Part shown: positions 19,496 through 49,498 of the stretch, piece after piece | Layout of the letters: the number at the start of each line of letters is the position of its first letter | Position numbering within the stretch: the stretch's first letter is position 1 | Source: Methanosarcina barkeri 3 | Lineage (GTDB): Archaea > Halobacteriota > Methanosarcinia > Methanosarcinales > Methanosarcinaceae | Assembly (NCBI RefSeq): GCF_000970305.1 | Contig: NZ_CP009517.1 | Span: 620,001 to 684,000, forward strand | Direction of reading: 5' to 3' | Length of the DNA stretch: 64,000 nt | Made by a program: the position numbers and the translations under genes | Notes under the pieces: model-generated | What the model was told of the DNA's origin: nothing | Seen by the model: the letters and a program-made list of their open reading frames with translations, nothing else | Database searches by the model: none

Positions 19496-20899
19496 ATGGC
19501 AACTGAATACGCTTTGAGAATGGGAGACGGAAAACGTGTCTTCCTTACCAAAGAGAAAATCATGGCTGAGATCGAGGCCGGAACTGCTAATGCTGCCGAC
19601 CTTGGTGAGATCTCTGCCCTCAGCGCCGATGAAATTGACAAGCTTGCAGAAATTCTTATGATGCCAGGCAAGGCTGTAAGTGTCGAGCAGGGCATGGAGA
19701 TTCCCGTAACGCACGACATCGGCACTATAAGGCTTGACGGTGACCAGGGTAACAGTGGTGTCGGTATTCCTTCCAGCCGCCTGGTTGGCTGCATGACTCA
19801 CGAGCGTGCTTTCGGTGCCGACACAATGGAACTCGGACACATTGATTACAGTTTTAAGCCTGTAAAACCTGTCGTATCAAACGAGTGCCAGGCAATGGAA
19901 GTCTGCCAGCAGAACATGATCATCCCATTGTTTTACGGCGCAATGCCAAATATGGGACTGTATTATACCCCTGATGGACCATTTGAGAATCCCGGCGACC
20001 TTATGAAACTATTCAAGATCGATAAGGCAAAAGAATCAATGGAACATGCTGCCGAACACCTTACTAGAGACACTATCTGGGTTATGCAGAAGCTTTTTGC
20101 CTCCGGTGCAGATGGAGTTAACTTTGATACAACCGGTGCAGCAGGCGACGGAGATATGTACGGCACACTGTATGCAATTCAGGCACTTAGAAACGAGTTT
20201 CCTGATATGTATATCGAAGCCGGAATGGCTGGCGAGATGGTACTGGGTATGCACGGAGAACTGGAATATGATGGAGTACGGCTCGCAGGTTTGTGGCCTC
20301 ATGAACAGGCTCCACTTATTGCAAAGGCAGGAGCAAACGTTTTCGGGCCAGTATGCAACACCAATACCAGCAAAAGCTCAGCCTGGAACCTTGCTCGTGC
20401 AGTTACCTTCATGAAGGCAGCTGTCGAGGCGTCTCCAATTCCCTGTCACGTTGACATGGGCATGGGCGTTGGCGGAATTCCTATGCTCGAGACTCCTCCT
20501 ATTGATGCGGTTACCAGAGCAAGCAAGGCAATGGTAGAAATTGCAGGCGTAGACGGCATATAGATCGGGGTCGGCGACCCATTGGGTATGCCGATTTCCC
20601 ACATAATGGCTTCAGGTATGACTGGAATAAGGGCTGCAGGAGACCTTGTTGCAAGGATGGAGTTCTCAAAGAATATGCGCATAGGCGAGGCAAAAGAATA
20701 CGTGGCAAAGAAACTCGGGGTCGACAAGATGGACCTCGTAGACGAGCATGTTATGCGAGAGCTGCGTGAAGAACTTGATATTGGAGTAGTAACTTCAGTA
20801 CCAGGTGCTGCAAAAGGTATTGCTGCAAAGATGAATATTGAAAAGTTGCTTGATATTAAGATTAATTCCTGCAACATTTTCAGAAAACAAATTGCCTGA
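19496..20899 (+). CDS. mtbB: Dimethylamine methyltransferase MtbB with in-frame pyrrolysine
   Basis: Methylates the MtbC corrinoid with dimethylamine, releasing monomethylamine. The frame from ATG 19496 runs 355 codons to TAG (20561-20563) and continues without interruption through [21 protein letters not shown] to TGA at 20897-20899. This gives 467 residues, the family length, with pyrrolysine at position 356, the place known in MtbB. A pyrrolysine-unaware reading would split the gene in two. The pylTSBCD genes are not in this window and must lie elsewhere. An AGAGG ribosome site precedes the ATG. The downstream permease frame overlaps the end of this gene. Confidence 0.96.
20561..20563 (+). 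other. In-frame amber codon read as pyrrolysine
   Basis: TAG between GVDGI and IGVGDP of MtbB. Sequence homologous to the family C-terminus continues in the same frame on the far side, which excludes a true stop. Confidence 0.95.
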
Positions 20900-25714: not shown

Positions 25715-25755
25715 TTTTTCAGGTAATTTAAAGTAATTTTTTGTTTTAATAACAG

Positions 25756-41684: not shown

Positions 41685-41780
41685 ATGTGGTTTGGTAACT
41701 GTGGCTGGGGTGGCTGCGGCGGCTGGGGCTGGCGTCGTTGGCGCGGTTGCGGCTGGGGCGGCTGCGGTGGCTGGTGGTAA
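41685..41780 (+). CDS. Gly/Trp/Cys-rich 31-aa protein A
   Basis: ATG 41685 to TAA 41778-41780, with a CTGGAGG ribosome site 8 bp upstream. The peptide begins MWFGNCGWGGCGGW and ends GGCGGWW: 13 Gly, 8 Trp, 4 Cys and 3 Arg in 31 residues. No signal peptide. The composition suggests metal binding, a scaffold of stacked aromatics, or a substrate for modification; none of this is demonstrated. The nearly identical start of gene B (MWFGNCGWGGCGGWG) and shared flanks show a recent tandem duplication. The longer frame across A and B from 41692 is an out-of-frame artefact for A. Confidence 0.75.
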   Translation: MWFGNCGWGGCGGWGWRRWRGCGWGGCGGWW

Positions 41781-41844: not shown

Positions 41845-41946
41845 ATGTGGTTTGGTAACTGTGGCTGGGGTGGCTGCGGCGGCTGGGGTGGCTGCGGCGG
41901 TTGCGGCGGCTGGGGTGGCTGTGGCCTATGGAACTGGTGGTGTTAA
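41845..41946 (+). CDS. Gly/Trp/Cys-rich 33-aa protein B
   Basis: ATG 41845 to TAA 41944-41946 behind TGGAGGTAAATATA, the ribosome site shared by the whole cluster. The peptide has 15 Gly, 7 Trp and 6 Cys; Cys residues alternate with GG and GW steps and the end is WNWWC. It differs from A mainly by loss of the RRWR basic patch and by two more cysteines. It has no leader of its own, so it is probably translated from the gene A mRNA. Confidence 0.75.
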   Translation: MWFGNCGWGGCGGWGGCGGCGGWGGCGLWNWWC

Positions 41947-42007
41947 GAACAACCGCTAGACCAATGGCTGAGCTCAATAAATATTGAATATTGATGAATA
42001 AAAGTGG

Positions 42008-42060
42008 TCATCATTTCAAGACAGGAAGGTCATTTCAGATTAATTGTCTTGAATTGATGG
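42008..42060. repeat. Hairpin family copy behind gene B
   Basis: tcatcatttcaagaca (42008-42023) pairs with tgtcttgaattgatgg (42045-42060), 14 of 16 positions. It keeps the ttcaagaca core of the hairpins at 28144 and 28902 and may end the A-B transcript. Confidence 0.6.
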
Positions 42061-42480
42061 CTATATATTTTATTACCTGTGTAGGTTAGCAATAGTTTCA
42101 TGTGTTTGAAAGCGGTTTTCGATTCAGGCTGATTAAATCAAAAGCTCACTATTTTATAAGAATAGTTTATTTTAGAAATAATACACTTTCCTCTTAATGT
42201 ATACAAGCGAAGAAGTTTAAAAACAGAATGAGTAGTTCTATTTTCTTTTACTAAATACGCCTTTTTTGAGCTTCCAAATTGATTATAACCGGATGATGTA
42301 GTATATCCATACCATCGAGGTTTTATTTACTTATAAATATTAAATTGCAGACTATAAGTCCTGATTTATCTACATATTTAAAAACTCAAATTTTATAAAT
42401 TAAATACAAAACTAAACAGGACTTCTCAATGCTTGATTTCATAGCTTTTTCAATGACTATTTAATGTTAAGAATTTATTA
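42061..42480. other. AT-rich spacer
   Basis: No gene; from about 42410 it begins to resemble the upstream region of gene D. Confidence 0.4.
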
Positions 42481-42490
42481 TTCTATTCTA

Positions 42491-42744
42491 TTTATATAAT
42501 TTATTATTATATTATTGATTGTACTTTCTGGCAATTAAAGTTAAATCTGCCTCTTTTTAAGGGGATATAGATTATAACACGCTTGTCAGGAGTAACAATG
42601 GAGTTGGGAAGTCGATATAAAATTTGATTTGAGAAATATGTACTCTAATCTTTGGATTATATCATTCCCAATATATAAAAATCGTATAAATTAACTAGAA
42701 AAACATACAACAAACAAAAATATAGTAAATTGGAGGTAAATATA
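42491..42744 (+). promoter_or_regulatory. Promoter and structured leader of gene C
   Basis: TATA at 42491-42499 and, 31 nt on, the stem tttctggcaa (42525-42534) with ttgtcaggag (42583-42592), 10 pairs including G-U. A small hairpin (cctcttttt/aagggg) sits inside. A second stem joins ttgggaa (42604-42610) to ttcccaa (42665-42671). The block gagttgggaagtcgatataa and the next ~20 bases are identical in leader D. Confidence 0.7.
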
Positions 42745-42927
42745 ATGGGTGGAGGATACGGATTATTTGGAAGAGGATTTGATGGTTGCGGCTGCGGTTG
42801 CGGCGGCTTCGGCGGCTGGGGCGGCTGGGGCGGCTGGGGCGGCTGTGGTTGTGAGCCTGAGGTTAAATGCATAACAGCAGTTCGTGCCTGCTGTATTAAA
42901 GGCGGCGGCTGGGGCGGCTGGTGTTAA
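42745..42927 (+). CDS. Gly/Cys/Trp-rich 60-aa protein C
   Basis: ATG 42745, with TGGAGG 8 bp upstream; an in-frame ATG at 42730 lies inside that ribosome site and is rejected. Three parts: a short lead (MGGGYGLFGRGFDG), a Gly/Cys/Trp block (CGCGCGGFGGWGGWGGWGG), and a non-repetitive segment CEPEVKCITAVRACCIKG before a closing GWGGWC. The ITAVRAC.IKG segment is conserved in protein D, so selection acts on more than composition. No family recognised. Confidence 0.75.
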   Translation: MGGGYGLFGRGFDGCGCGCGGFGGWGGWGGWGGCGCEPEVKCITAVRACCIKGGGWGGWC

Positions 42928-43027
42928 AGATAGATTAATCAGATATTGATTAAATCACTCTGACCAGTCAAACCACATACTTAATAGAGAAATATAAAAT
43001 GTAAAATAAAATGTAAAACCAATGATA

Positions 43028-43145
43028 GCTCATTCATGCAGCCCTTTGTCGGATATAGAAGCAGGAGAACCCTGATTGTATCAGAGTTTTAAAATGTACT
43101 GAAAGGTCTCTTCTGTAACTAACCGGCACTCTTTAATGAATGAGC
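43028..43145 (+). ncRNA. Structured element downstream of gene C
   Basis: Three nested stems: gctcattca (43028-43036) with tgaatgagc (43137-43145); tgtcgg (43047-43052) with ccggca (43123-43128); gcaggaga (43061-43068) with tcttctgt (43109-43116, two G-U). A small inner hairpin ctgat-tgt-atcag lies between them. The same architecture is behind gene D with compensating changes. It may be a 3'-UTR element or a separate small RNA. Confidence 0.7.
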
Positions 43146-43740
43146 CTATTTATATTTATTAGTTCAGCAATAACTCAGTTTAGAAACAAGCTATAAAAAT
43201 TCGATATAATAGCGAATATTTTTATAGATCTGTTAATATATATGCATTTACTCTTTTTTCCACAGTCACCCTAGTTTTTTCATATTATATAATTGCGAAT
43301 CCTTTACTGGAAATCACTTAACTATTACATTAGCAGTTAATATTTTCTCTTATTAGTTATGTTTTTGGAAAAGCTTTATTTTAAGCGAAAACTAAGTGTT
43401 TAGAACAAATAGTCAATTTTATGAGTAATTTACTTTATAAATAATTCACTTTTATATAAAAATCTTAGAGTACTGAGGTTCAAAAATCGTATAAGTAACT
43501 CTATTTTTGTTTGATAAATTAGCTTATATTAAGCCTCTAAAAAGGCTATAATCACAGGATATAATGTACTTATGCCATAAAAGCTTTATTTTTGCATAAA
43601 TATAAAATTAAAAACCTGAACTCCTGGTTTTATATAAATCAAAGGAATTAAAATTCGTAAATTAAGCTTATAATTTAACGCGGTTTACAGAGCATGATTT
43701 CCCAGCTTTTTCAATGACTATTTAATATTAAGAACATATT
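43146..43740. other. AT-rich spacer
   Basis: No gene or repeat recognised before the conserved upstream region of gene D. Confidence 0.4.
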
Positions 43741-43751
43741 ATTCTATTATG

Positions 43752-43997
43752 CTTATATAATTTACAATTATATTATTAATTGTACTTCCTGATAACAGAA
43801 GTTAAATTGATTTTTCTTCACGCGAAGACAGACCATAATGTGGTTATCAGGGGTAATAAAAGAGTTGGGAAGTCGATATAAAATTTGATTTGAGAAATAT
43901 TACTCGAATCTTGTATTATATCTACTAAAATATATAAAATATTACATAAACTGACTAGAAAAGTAATAAAAATATAGTAAATATGGAGGTAAATACA
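43752..43997 (+). promoter_or_regulatory. Promoter and structured leader of gene D
   Basis: TATA cttatataa (43752-43760) and, 31 nt on, ttcctgataac (43786-43796) paired with gttatcagggg (43843-43853) over 11 bp. An inner hairpin tcttc-acgc-gaaga replaces the cctc/gggg hairpin of leader C. The 39-nt identical block with leader C follows; the second stem of leaders A and C has no clear right arm here. Confidence 0.7.
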
Positions 43998-44213
43998 ATG
44001 GGAGGATTTCCATTCTTTAAAAAGTTCGATAATTGTGGCTGCGGCTGCGGCTGCGGCGGTGGCTTTGGCGGCTTTTGCGGCTTTGGTGGTTTCTTTGGCG
44101 GCGACGGCTGTGGTTGTGGATGCAAAAAGGAGAAAGAGGTTTGTTGCATAACAGCAGTTCGTGCCTGTAAGATTAAAGGCGACGAATGTGACGGCTGGGG
44201 CGGCTGGTGGTAA
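43998..44213 (+). CDS. Gly/Cys/Phe-rich 71-aa protein D
   Basis: ATG 43998 after ATGGAGGTAAATACA. Layout as in C: lead MGGFPFFKKFDN, then a CGCGCGCGGGFGGFCGFGGFF block with Phe in place of most Trp, an acidic/basic linker (CGCGCKKEKEVC), the shared CITAVRACKIKG segment, and the end CDGWGGWW. Replacement of Trp by Phe at matching steps shows that an aromatic residue, not Trp itself, is conserved in the repeats. Cytosolic by absence of a signal peptide. Function unknown. Confidence 0.75.
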   Translation: MGGFPFFKKFDNCGCGCGCGGGFGGFCGFGGFFGGDGCGCGCKKEKEVCCITAVRACKIKGDECDGWGGWW

Positions 44214-44295
44214 GAGAGATTGATCAGATACTGATCAATCACTCTGAATTATCAACCACAAATTCAATCATTAACTAAAATATAAAGCCAGCCGT

Positions 44296-44424
44296 GGGCT
44301 CATTTGTACAATCCTCCGCCGGTATATAGAAGCAGGAGAATCTTGATTGCACAGAATTTGAAATTTATCGAAAGGTCTCTCCTGCATAACCGGCACTTAT
44401 TAGAAAGGACTAACGAATAAGCCC
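44296..44424 (+). ncRNA. Structured element downstream of gene D
   Basis: Same nested plan as 43028-43145: gggctcatttgt (44296-44307) with acgaataagccc (44413-44424); gccggt (44318-44323) with accggc (44389-44394); gcaggaga (44332-44339) with tctcctgc (44378-44385, all Watson-Crick where copy C has G-U). The loop block cgaaaggtct is conserved. Confidence 0.7.
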
Positions 44425-44512
44425 TATCTTATTTTATGCATCCATGACTGATAATTTTATCGGAAAACTAACCAGATAAGAACTCAAACAACTTAATCTT
44501 GGGCACTTTTTT

Positions 44513-44611
44513 GGACACTTAAATACTGGACACTTAAATACTGGACACTTAAATACTGGACACTTAAATACTGGACACTTAAATTCTGGACACTTAAATT
44601 CTGGACATTTG
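44513..44611 (+). repeat. 15-bp tandem repeat
   Basis: Six full copies of ggacacttaaatact from 44513 and a partial seventh. Confidence 0.9.
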
Positions 44612-46924: not shown

Positions 46925-49498
46925 TTACTTTACTGTAATATAGTTAGAGATAGTTTTAGTGTTACTTCCAATAACATTCTTTACTGTTAAACTAACAGTA
47001 TATTTTCCGGTTTTGGCATACTTATGCGTTGGGTTCTGAACTGTTGAAGTGCTCCCATCTCCAAAAGTCCATTTCCAGGAAGCTGGATAGCCTGTACTTT
47101 TATCTGTGAATTTTACTGTTAATGGTACTTTCCCGGACGTTGGAGATGCGGAAAATGCAGCAACGGGTTTTGCTACTATTGTGATATAATTCGTTTTTGT
47201 TACCGTATTACTACCTGCTGCGTTGGTAACTGTAAGTGTCACTGTATATTTTCCTGTTTTTGAATACTTATAAGTTGGATTCTGTTTTGTTGAAGTGTTT
47301 CCGTCACCAAAAGTCCATTTCCATTTAGTCGGCGTTCCTGTACTTTTATCTGTGAATTTTACTGTCAATGGAATTTTCCCAGAGGTTGGAGTTGCAGAAA
47401 ATTCAGCAACAGGCTTTACAATAGCCGATTTGACGGTGATATAATTTGTTTTTGTTGTCGTGTTGCTGCCTGCAGCATTCTTTACCATTAAGCTAACAGT
47501 ATATTTTCCTGCTTTACTGTATGTGTATGTAGGATTCTGCTTGGTTGAGGTATTCCCGTCTCCGAAAGTCCACTTCCATGAAGTTGGACTGTTGGTACTC
47601 ATATCAGTAAATTTCACTTTAAGTGGAGCATACCCTTGAGTAATATCACTGCTGAACTTTGCTGTAGGAATTGGTAATATTGGTGGAGCAAACTTCTGAA
47701 TGCGATCATTGTAACTATCGGCAACATAAACATTGCCTGAGTAATCTACAGCAACATCAGACGGATACTTGAATTGTCCATTCCCACTTCCGTAAGAGCC
47801 CCATGTAGTAATGAAGTTACCTTTACTGTCGAACTTCTGAATACGATGATTCGACTCATCTGCAATATAAACATTCCCAGAAGAATCTACAGCAATACCT
47901 TTTGGAGACCTGAATTGTCCATTCCCGTTTCCAGAGGAACCCCATTGAGTAAGATAGTAACCATTGCTATCAAACTTCTGGATGCGCTGATTATCAGTAT
48001 CGGCAACATAGACATTGCCTGAGGAATCTACAGCGACACCGCATGGATAATAAAATTGTCCATCAATGCTTCCCCGAGAACCCCATCCTGTTATGAAGTT
48101 TCCGTTGCTATCAAACTTCTGAATGCGATTATTGTAAGTATCGGCAACATAAATATTGCCTGAGGAATCCATAGCAATACCCTTCGGAGACCTGAATTGT
48201 CCATTTCCGCTTCCGTAAGAACCCCATGTGGTAATGAAGCTGCCATTAGGACTTAATTTCTGAATCCGATTATTGGAAGTATCGATAACATAAACATTAC
48301 CTTTAGAGTCTACGACAACATCATTTGGATCCAGATGGCTGTTTATACTGCTAAAAGAACCAAATCCGAAAAGAAAAATACCTTTACTGTTATATTTCTG
48401 AATATTATTACTATCATCGGCGACATAAACATTCCCAGAATAATCTACAGCAACACCATTTGGACTTGGATTCGAATCCCATCCACAATCGCCACCCCAT
48501 TGAGCGAGGAATCCACCATTACTGTTAAACTTCTGTATACGGTTATTATTGGTATCGATGACATAAATATTATTTGAAGAGTCTACGGCCATACCTCTTG
48601 GTGAGTAAAATTTCCCTTCTCCACTGTAACCGTATGAACCCCATTGAGTAAGGTAATTACCGTTACTATCAAACTTCTGAATACGATCGTTACCGGAATC
48701 GGCAACATAAACATTGCTCTTAGTGTCGACAGCAATGCCTCTTGGATACTCAAATTTCCCTTCCCCACTATAACCATATGAACCCCATGTAGTAACGAAT
48801 TTACCTTTGCTATCAAATTTCTGAATGCGATTGTTTCCGGAATCGGCAACATAAACATTGCCTTTAGAGTCTACAGAAACACTTTTTGGCTCTTTAAATT
48901 GTCCATTAGAACCACCGGAAGAACCTATTTGTGAGAGGTAATTGCCGTTGCTGTCAAACTTTTGATAGCGATTGTTTCCGGAATCGGCAACATAAACATT
49001 GTCTGAGGAATCTATAGCAATTCCCCATGGGCTGTTGAATTGTCCATTATTGGTGCCGGAATAACCCCATTTTTTGATAAACTGGCCATTGCTGTCGAAT
49101 TTTTGAATGCGATTGTTTTTATTATCTGAAACATACACATTGCCCTTGGAGTCTACAGCAATACCTTCTGGATCCTCAAATTGTCCATTCCCGGTCCCTT
49201 CGGAACCCCACGTAGTTATGAAGTTACCTTTACTGTCAAATTTTTGAATTCGATTCTTATCTACATCAACAACATAAACGTTACCCGATGAATCTACAGC
49301 AGTACTTTCTGGAGAATCAAAATGCCCATAATTATTTTGAGCCCAACTTGTAACAAAATTATAAGTTTCAGCGTGCGTAACAGGTGCGCTTACCAATCCC
49401 AGAAAAACGATAGTCAAGCAAATTGACGTTATTTTGAATATATCGGCTTGTTGATATTTTATTTTAAATTCCTCCTTTATATTTCGCTTCATATTCAT
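46925..49498 (-). CDS. Secreted NHL-repeat / PKD-domain surface protein
   Basis: 857 residues. A signal peptide (helix ~25-42, cut after VTHA) is followed by 12 NHL-type repeats of ~47 residues with the consensus VDSSGNVYVADSxNNRIQKF. This is enough for two six-bladed propellers. The chain ends in three PKD domains (each containing WxWTFGDGNTST and YTVSLxVxNAAGS). There is no C-terminal anchor, so retention by the S-layer or by the PKD domains is assumed. Such proteins are common on Methanosarcina surfaces and may mediate adhesion. Repeat 7 has lost one residue in the NNRIQKF motif. The near-identical blades show recent internal duplication. Confidence 0.88.
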   Translation of the reverse strand: MNMKRNIKEEFKIKYQQADIFKITSICLTIVFLGLVSAPVTHAETYNFVTSWAQNNYGHFDSPESTAVDSSGNVYVVDVDKNRIQKFDSKGNFITTWGSEGTGNGQFEDPEGIAVDSKGNVYVSDNKNNRIQKFDSNGQFIKKWGYSGTNNGQFNSPWGIAIDSSDNVYVADSGNNRYQKFDSNGNYLSQIGSSGGSNGQFKEPKSVSVDSKGNVYVADSGNNRIQKFDSKGKFVTTWGSYGYSGEGKFEYPRGIAVDTKSNVYVADSGNDRIQKFDSNGNYLTQWGSYGYSGEGKFYSPRGMAVDSSNNIYVIDTNNNRIQKFNSNGGFLAQWGGDCGWDSNPSPNGVAVDYSGNVYVADDSNNIQKYNSKGIFLFGFGSFSSINSHLDPNDVVVDSKGNVYVIDTSNNRIQKLSPNGSFITTWGSYGSGNGQFRSPKGIAMDSSGNIYVADTYNNRIQKFDSNGNFITGWGSRGSIDGQFYYPCGVAVDSSGNVYVADTDNQRIQKFDSNGYYLTQWGSSGNGNGQFRSPKGIAVDSSGNVYIADESNHRIQKFDSKGNFITTWGSYGSGNGQFKYPSDVAVDYSGNVYVADSYNDRIQKFAPPILPIPTAKFSSDITQGYAPLKVKFTDMSTNSPTSWKWTFGDGNTSTKQNPTYTYSKAGKYTVSLMVKNAAGSNTTTKTNYITVKSAIVKPVAEFSATPTSGKIPLTVKFTDKSTGTPTKWKWTFGDGNTSTKQNPTYKYSKTGKYTVTLTVTNAAGSNTVTKTNYITIVAKPVAAFSASPTSGKVPLTVKFTDKSTGYPASWKWTFGDGSTSTVQNPTHKYAKTGKYTVSLTVKNVIGSNTKTISNYITVK

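Follow-up and report, generated by a model that had tools for sequence, protein, structure and literature searches.

A conserved rod-shaped RNA element located 3' of genes for small repetitive proteins in Methanosarcina

The window considered here is a stretch of 64,000 nucleotides from a Methanosarcina chromosome (G000:C1:620001-684000). It carries an ileS gene with 98% identity to ileS of M. spelaei and a neighboring gene that we take to be mptE-like, and 3' of these two follows a cluster of four small ORFs (A, B, C, and D) rich in Gly, Cys, and Trp. Within this cluster, C and D are each followed by an RNA element, below called copy C and copy D (Table 1). The same cluster occurs in synteny behind ileS in M. 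spelaei, UBA5, UBA289, UBA11020, and Ant1, among others. For genes C and D, no Pfam or NCBIfam match was found at threshold; the sub-threshold matches of the ORFs to these collections (e.g., GRP, or GrrA/OscA1 RiPP with 22 bits versus a cut-off of 31 bits) are driven by composition and were not used.

The region upstream of gene C is repeated upstream of gene D with 80% identity, and from this follows that the whole unit, from the upstream region through the gene to the tail, appears to have been duplicated as one cassette. The upstream region contains a conserved CGATATAAAA box, and the region with its box may act as a promoter. Several further features were seen around the cassettes. Inside both genes, the conserved stretch that codes for ITAVRA (42874-42900 and 44147-44172) could, as judged by eye, form a small hairpin, the candidate in gene C being ACAGCAG ... 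CTGCTGT. Eight nucleotides of copy D are, also by eye, complementary to the start of its own gene, a match that is absent from copy C. Directly 3' of copy D, at 44500-44610, there are tandem 15-nt repeats (TGGACACTTAAATAC), which align poorly with relatives and have a conservation near zero. Behind genes A and B, at 41990-42075, another strong hairpin is followed by a U-rich stretch; the same hairpin is found in G028 with other pairs (L098), and a similar one was seen by eye behind a gene of class 2 (defined below) in L193; it may be a further 3'-end module in the same family of genes. On the minus strand, at 46925-49498, lies the gene of an 857-aa protein, likely a surface protein, with repeats that by the look of the sequence are presumably NHL-like and PKD-like.

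Table 1. Positions, within the window, of the genes, the RNA elements, and the helices of the elements
Feature	Position	Strand	Description
ORF A	41685-41780		small Gly/Cys/Trp-rich
ORF B	41845-41946		small Gly/Cys/Trp-rich
Region upstream of gene C	42431..42639	+	80% identity to 43692-43900 upstream of gene D
Gene C	42745..42927	+	60-aa Gly/Cys-rich class-1 ORF, 5' of copy C
Element copy C	43019..43159	+	covariance-model match, R1 127.1 bits, R2 119.3 bits
Copy C, P1 (outer helix)	43027..43037 with 43136..43146	+	
Copy C, P3	43048..43052 with 43123-43127	+	
Copy C, P4	43061..43068 with 43109-43116	+	
Copy C, U-rich stretch after P1	43147..43159	+	
Gene D	43998..44213	+	71-aa Gly/Cys-rich class-1 ORF, 5' of copy D
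Element copy D	44289..44437	+	covariance-model match, R1 152.8 bits, R2 141.6 bits
Copy D, P1 (outer helix)	44296..44307 with 44413..44424	+	
Copy D, P2	44312..44315 with 44406-44409	+	
Copy D, P3	44318..44323 with 44389-44394	+	
Copy D, P4	44332..44344 with 44372-44385	+	
Copy D, conserved U-rich stretch after P1	44425..44437	+	possible RNA 3' end, function inferred

The two elements are copies of a rod of stacked helices, about 150 nt long and closed by the outer helix P1. Copy C is without the 3' strand of P2, due to a 10-nt deletion. Relative to dinucleotide shuffles, the folds of the 150-nt stretches have z values of -3.49 and -2.60; for the 80-nt cores, the values are -2.61 and -3.72. 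Exact matches of GAAGCAGGAGAA and GAAAGGTCTC within the window are limited to the two elements. Twin elements had been proposed at these positions in an initial annotation, and they do exist there, have structure beyond chance, and were found again with covariation in other species. The wobble and compensating changes that it quoted are present as well (GTCGG/CCGGC versus GCCGGT/ACCGGC, and GCAGGAGA with TCTTCTGT versus TCTCCTGC). It counted three nested stems where there are four to five helices; it described agaagcaggagaa and gaaaggtct as loop blocks, and these are mostly strands of P4; and the sequence cgaaaggtct, which it ascribed to both copies, reads tgaaaggtct in copy C. The conserved U-rich end of the element, which resembles an RNA 3' end, had been missed.

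When copy D was used as a BLAST query, matches were obtained in ten of the 30 Methanosarcina genomes. A covariance model built from 20 copies (R1) raised this to 13 of 30 at E values of 0.1 or better, and a second model built from 23 matches, divergent ones included (R2), gave matches in 15 of 30. One of these, G006:C1:289341 (R2, E 0.066), was rejected as false, since it lies inside a gene on the opposite strand, and relatives are thereby present in 14 of the 30 genomes. Among 185 genomes of the order, R1 had matches at E 0.01 or better in 12, all in one of 27 genera, and R2 in 14, all Methanosarcina; no relatives were found in the other genera of the order by R1 or R2 over these 185 genomes. 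Antisense matches on known copies are excluded from all counts. Searches of phage and plasmid collections gave no match to the element. At the gathering threshold, no Rfam 15 family covers the elements, and at E values up to 10 the best Rfam 15 matches in 42900-44500 are sub-threshold and lie outside them. The one Rfam match elsewhere in the window is the pyrrolysine insertion element PYLIS_2 (20561-20660, 112.2 bits), which is expected for Methanosarcina. No description of the element was found in the open-licence literature, a collection from which most subscription journals are absent. The element is, accordingly, a previously uncatalogued RNA family of about 150 nt that is not covered by Rfam.

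The element has a conserved secondary structure, which is supported by covariation on two alignments. In the first, for which MAFFT aligned 20 copies without reference to structure, 85.5% of the cells are paired, and pairing is halved when the partners are slid by one to three columns. Changes on both sides of a pair occur in 21 cells, compared with 11.6 in shuffles (one of 500 as high) and with 8-12 in the slid controls, and they involve 12 pairs, compared with 8.4 in shuffles (29 of 500 as high); further pair types are not above shuffles on this alignment (35 versus 37.0). In the second, an alignment of 23 sequences fitted to the model, which leans towards structure, changes on both sides occur in 52 cells versus 25.4 and in 26 pairs versus 16.9, with none of 500 shuffles as high in either case. 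The shuffles do not correct for the relatedness of the copies. Best supported are P4 and the part of P1 near its middle, and P5 is weak. An element in which the sequence is kept while the pairs are broken, which the initial annotation had named as the observation that would speak against its proposal, is overall not what the structure-free alignment displays.

When RNAalifold was applied to an alignment of the core from 48 sequences, it found no common structure, i.e., zero pairs, probably because MAFFT misaligns the partners of P4. After this null result, the P4 region was folded one sequence at a time, which is weaker evidence: the close copies have a median z of -3.17, with 14 of 16 below -1, and the class-2 and other divergent copies a median z of -1.30, with 22 of 32 below -1.

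Consider now where the copies are situated relative to genes. BLAST gave 17 close copies, one of which (L008) is at a contig end, leaving 16 for which the position can be evaluated. In all 16, a Gly/Cys-rich ORF on the same strand ends 73-139 nt 5' of the element, so that the question raised earlier, whether other copies also follow Gly-rich genes, is answered in the affirmative, and the element is indeed, as had been proposed, a conserved structured RNA more elaborate than a simple hairpin and located 3' of such genes. The divergent copies follow genes of a second kind, here called class 2, whose small protein products begin with a signal peptide and continue in tandem low-complexity repeats. 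Eighteen sense matches fall outside the building sets of the models (seven for R1 and 11 for R2), and 16 of them lie 10-272 nt 3' of a class-2 gene; this number includes two near-identical copies in G011, where the ORF starts are lost and the reading is still family-like. The two exceptions are the false match in G006 and an element in G028, which is preserved together with about 120 nt of its 5' flank and has no ORF directly upstream. The element in G028 is the sole orphan among all sense matches examined. In the genome that contains the window, the rod has three sense matches, each 3' of a family gene, the class-2 copy (G000:C1:887755-887887) being located behind a 118-aa ORF. With respect to one gene family, the position and orientation of the element are thus constant, as is expected for a 3'-UTR element. 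A classic 5'-UTR riboswitch is disfavored by this location 3' of the gene; readings as a box C/D, k-turn, or SRP-like RNA were dropped for lack of fit.

With a profile of the signal peptide, the class-2 family is recovered in 28 of the 30 Methanosarcina genomes, with 2 to 85 matches in each, the highest number belonging to G016. The repeats are very diverse (WKDRC, CKTCSTC, FDKKFDR, and others). Two bridging proteins join class 2 to the class of genes C and D, class 1, and from this follows that the two classes are most simply read as one gene family. The first, L185, has a class-2 signal peptide and a class-1 C-terminus with 17 of 26 identities to L095, which in turn matches gene D; the link resides in the C-terminal part, and BLASTP with the whole of L185 against gene D gave no match. 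The second bridge is from L181 to L022, with an E value of 1e-4. The element, described earlier only in connection with Gly-rich genes, therefore belongs to a much larger gene family of signal-peptide, tandem-repeat proteins, and copies of it are retained across the family, if not behind every member. The simplest reading of these sequences is that the repetitive coding part would diverge faster than the shared structured 3' region. A passage search of the main text of a paper on the small proteome of M. mazei (PMC11456600) gave no mention of glycine-rich or secreted repeat proteins.

The conservation of flanking sequence bears on how the element is transcribed. Among orthologues of copy D, compared in blocks of 20 nt, conservation is 0.76-0.90 in the element, 0.44-0.68 in the middle of the ORF, 0.54-0.71 in the first 40 nt 3' of the stop codon, and 0.82 in the block 20-40 nt 5' of the element. 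A T-rich run comes after P1 in 19 of 21 copies (0.19 in random windows), and 18 of 21 have a TATA-like hexamer on their 5' side (0.20 in random windows). Since the copies are related, these counts display conservation rather than independent events. A T-rich stretch in this position fits an archaeal RNA 3' end, and the TATA-like motif is compatible with a promoter as well as with an A/T-rich stretch that has simply been kept.

If the TATA-like motif were a promoter, each element could be an independent small RNA gene, the partner of the protein gene in front of it, encoding an RNA of about 145 nt that acts in trans and whose two ends would be paired with each other by P1. The weight of this explanation, which is the main rival of the reading favored below and which we regard as somewhat unlikely, comes from the motif itself, from the block 20-60 nt 5' of the element, which is conserved whereas the stretch after the stop codon is poorly so, and from the orphan in G028; the U-rich end is compatible with it too. 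At the same time, the TATA-like box does not keep a constant position, several copies are without it, and there is a single orphan among all the sense matches. Furthermore, in class-2 genes without a rod, the stop codon is, as seen by eye, still followed by an A/T-rich stretch that resembles GGCTGTAAAATAAA, and from this follows that the stretch need not be a promoter of the rod.

Another possibility is that the rod is a mobile palindromic repeat, of MITE or REP type, which has come to lie near these genes by chance. The rod is a long imperfect palindrome, the model matches its own copies in antisense, and a true MITE-like hairpin does occur inside many class-2 copies, where a second hairpin, its ends resembling AGGACTTACGC, lies nested on the 3' side of P4. 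This nested hairpin, with the termini AGGACTTACGC ... GCGTAAGTCCT, sits at about the same point behind P4. Its terminal motif has 58 matches in the own genome with at most two mismatches, compared with eight for the reversed pattern, and the matches are often paired about 100 nt apart; in 14 fetched regions that contain the hairpin, no family gene was found among ORFs of 70 aa or more. The nested hairpin is therefore best read as a MITE-like insertion that is carried along, i.e., as a separate and dispersed repeat. The window itself has a MITE-like inverted repeat with AGGACTTACGC termini at 25755. The rod shares with these Methanosarcina hairpins that both are long, palindromic, intergenic elements of the same genomes, but it is without the AGGACTTACGC termini and is not dispersed. 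While the nested hairpin is scattered, the rod is confined to this gene family and lies in synteny (ileS, mptE-like gene, Gly-rich cluster), the sense matches in the own genome are all 3' of family genes, and dispersed copies beside unrelated genes are not seen, bar the orphan in G028 and the false match in G006. That the rod is itself such a repeat is thus very improbable.

There is a U-rich tract directly after the closing helix, as in terminator-like structures, and one could imagine an ordinary terminator hairpin with no further role. Archaeal termination generally relies on a U-tract and not on a hairpin, and the element is 150 nt long, is conserved in several of its internal segments, and is preceded by a block that is conserved as well; we give such an explanation hardly any credence. 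A different role would follow if a stable RNA were cut from the 3' UTR to act in trans or to link the expression of family members. The 5' strand and the internal loops are conserved beyond the needs of pairing, there are several copies per genome, and the long duplex could serve as a processing substrate. A 3'-UTR-derived RNA of this kind is in our judgment unlikely, less probable than the independent small RNA gene.

The explanation that we favor over both of these is that the element is a 3'-UTR module, which makes and protects the mRNA 3' end of the family of small low-complexity proteins. The preference, which is of moderate confidence, stems from the constant position 3' of one family, from the U-rich end, and from the fact that orphans are nearly absent. 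In such a scheme, transcription would proceed through the ORF, then through a spacer of about 75-140 nt in the close copies, and then through the rod of about 150 nt with its helices P1 to P4 or P5. The transcript would probably end in the conserved U-rich stretch just past the P1-closed rod, and the rod would shield the mRNA from 3'-to-5' decay and determine how abundant this unusual, repetitive message is. That gene and rod are transcribed together, that the 3' end forms in the U-rich stretch, and that the message is stabilized are all predictions from sequence.

Several observations do not sit well with the 3'-UTR module, among them the TATA-like motif and the orphan in G028 described above. 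Many class-2 genes are without the core: among 40 class-2 loci, taken non-randomly from the top of the list, the rod is found behind eight by R2 at E 0.1 or better and behind about 18 when counted by eye. There is also a class-2 subfamily in which the 3' partners of P1-P3 seem to have been lost while the 5' strand is kept, which a pure shield would not predict. Finally, the RNAalifold null on the 48-sequence core counts against it. The conservation of unpaired sequence, together with a 5' strand that is kept where its partner seems lost, suggests that a factor is bound as well.

To our knowledge, structured 3'-UTR elements in archaea with support from covariation have rarely been described. 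Candidate RNA motifs from comparative genomics, of the kind collected in Rfam (PMC2864571), have in common with the element a covarying structure, an association with one gene family, and a narrow clade; the element differs in that it has no match in Rfam 15, is located 3' of the gene, and is archaeal. The bacterial structured 3'-UTRs and terminators that are reported to stabilize upstream mRNA (PMC11696848, PMC6299119) have structure near the mRNA 3' end, as the element presumably does, and in the element a U-rich stretch comes after the structure. Compared with them, the element is a far larger rod with conserved internal sequence and is common to a paralogous family with hypervariable coding regions.

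A further and speculative idea, which we consider improbable, is that the rod serves dozens of hypervariable secreted repeat proteins as one RNA address tag for the whole family, recognized by a dedicated protein. If this were true, the messages would share a common post-transcriptional fate, such as membrane-near translation, coordinated decay, or balancing by a 3'-UTR-derived sRNA, and the coding regions could diverge freely while the tag is kept. The element marks a large family of small repetitive proteins whose annotation is poor, and it may act as a family marker where skewed protein composition defeats ordinary searches. Since Methanosarcina is a methanogen genus amenable to genetics, the element also offers a concrete point from which 3'-end formation and mRNA stability can be tested there.
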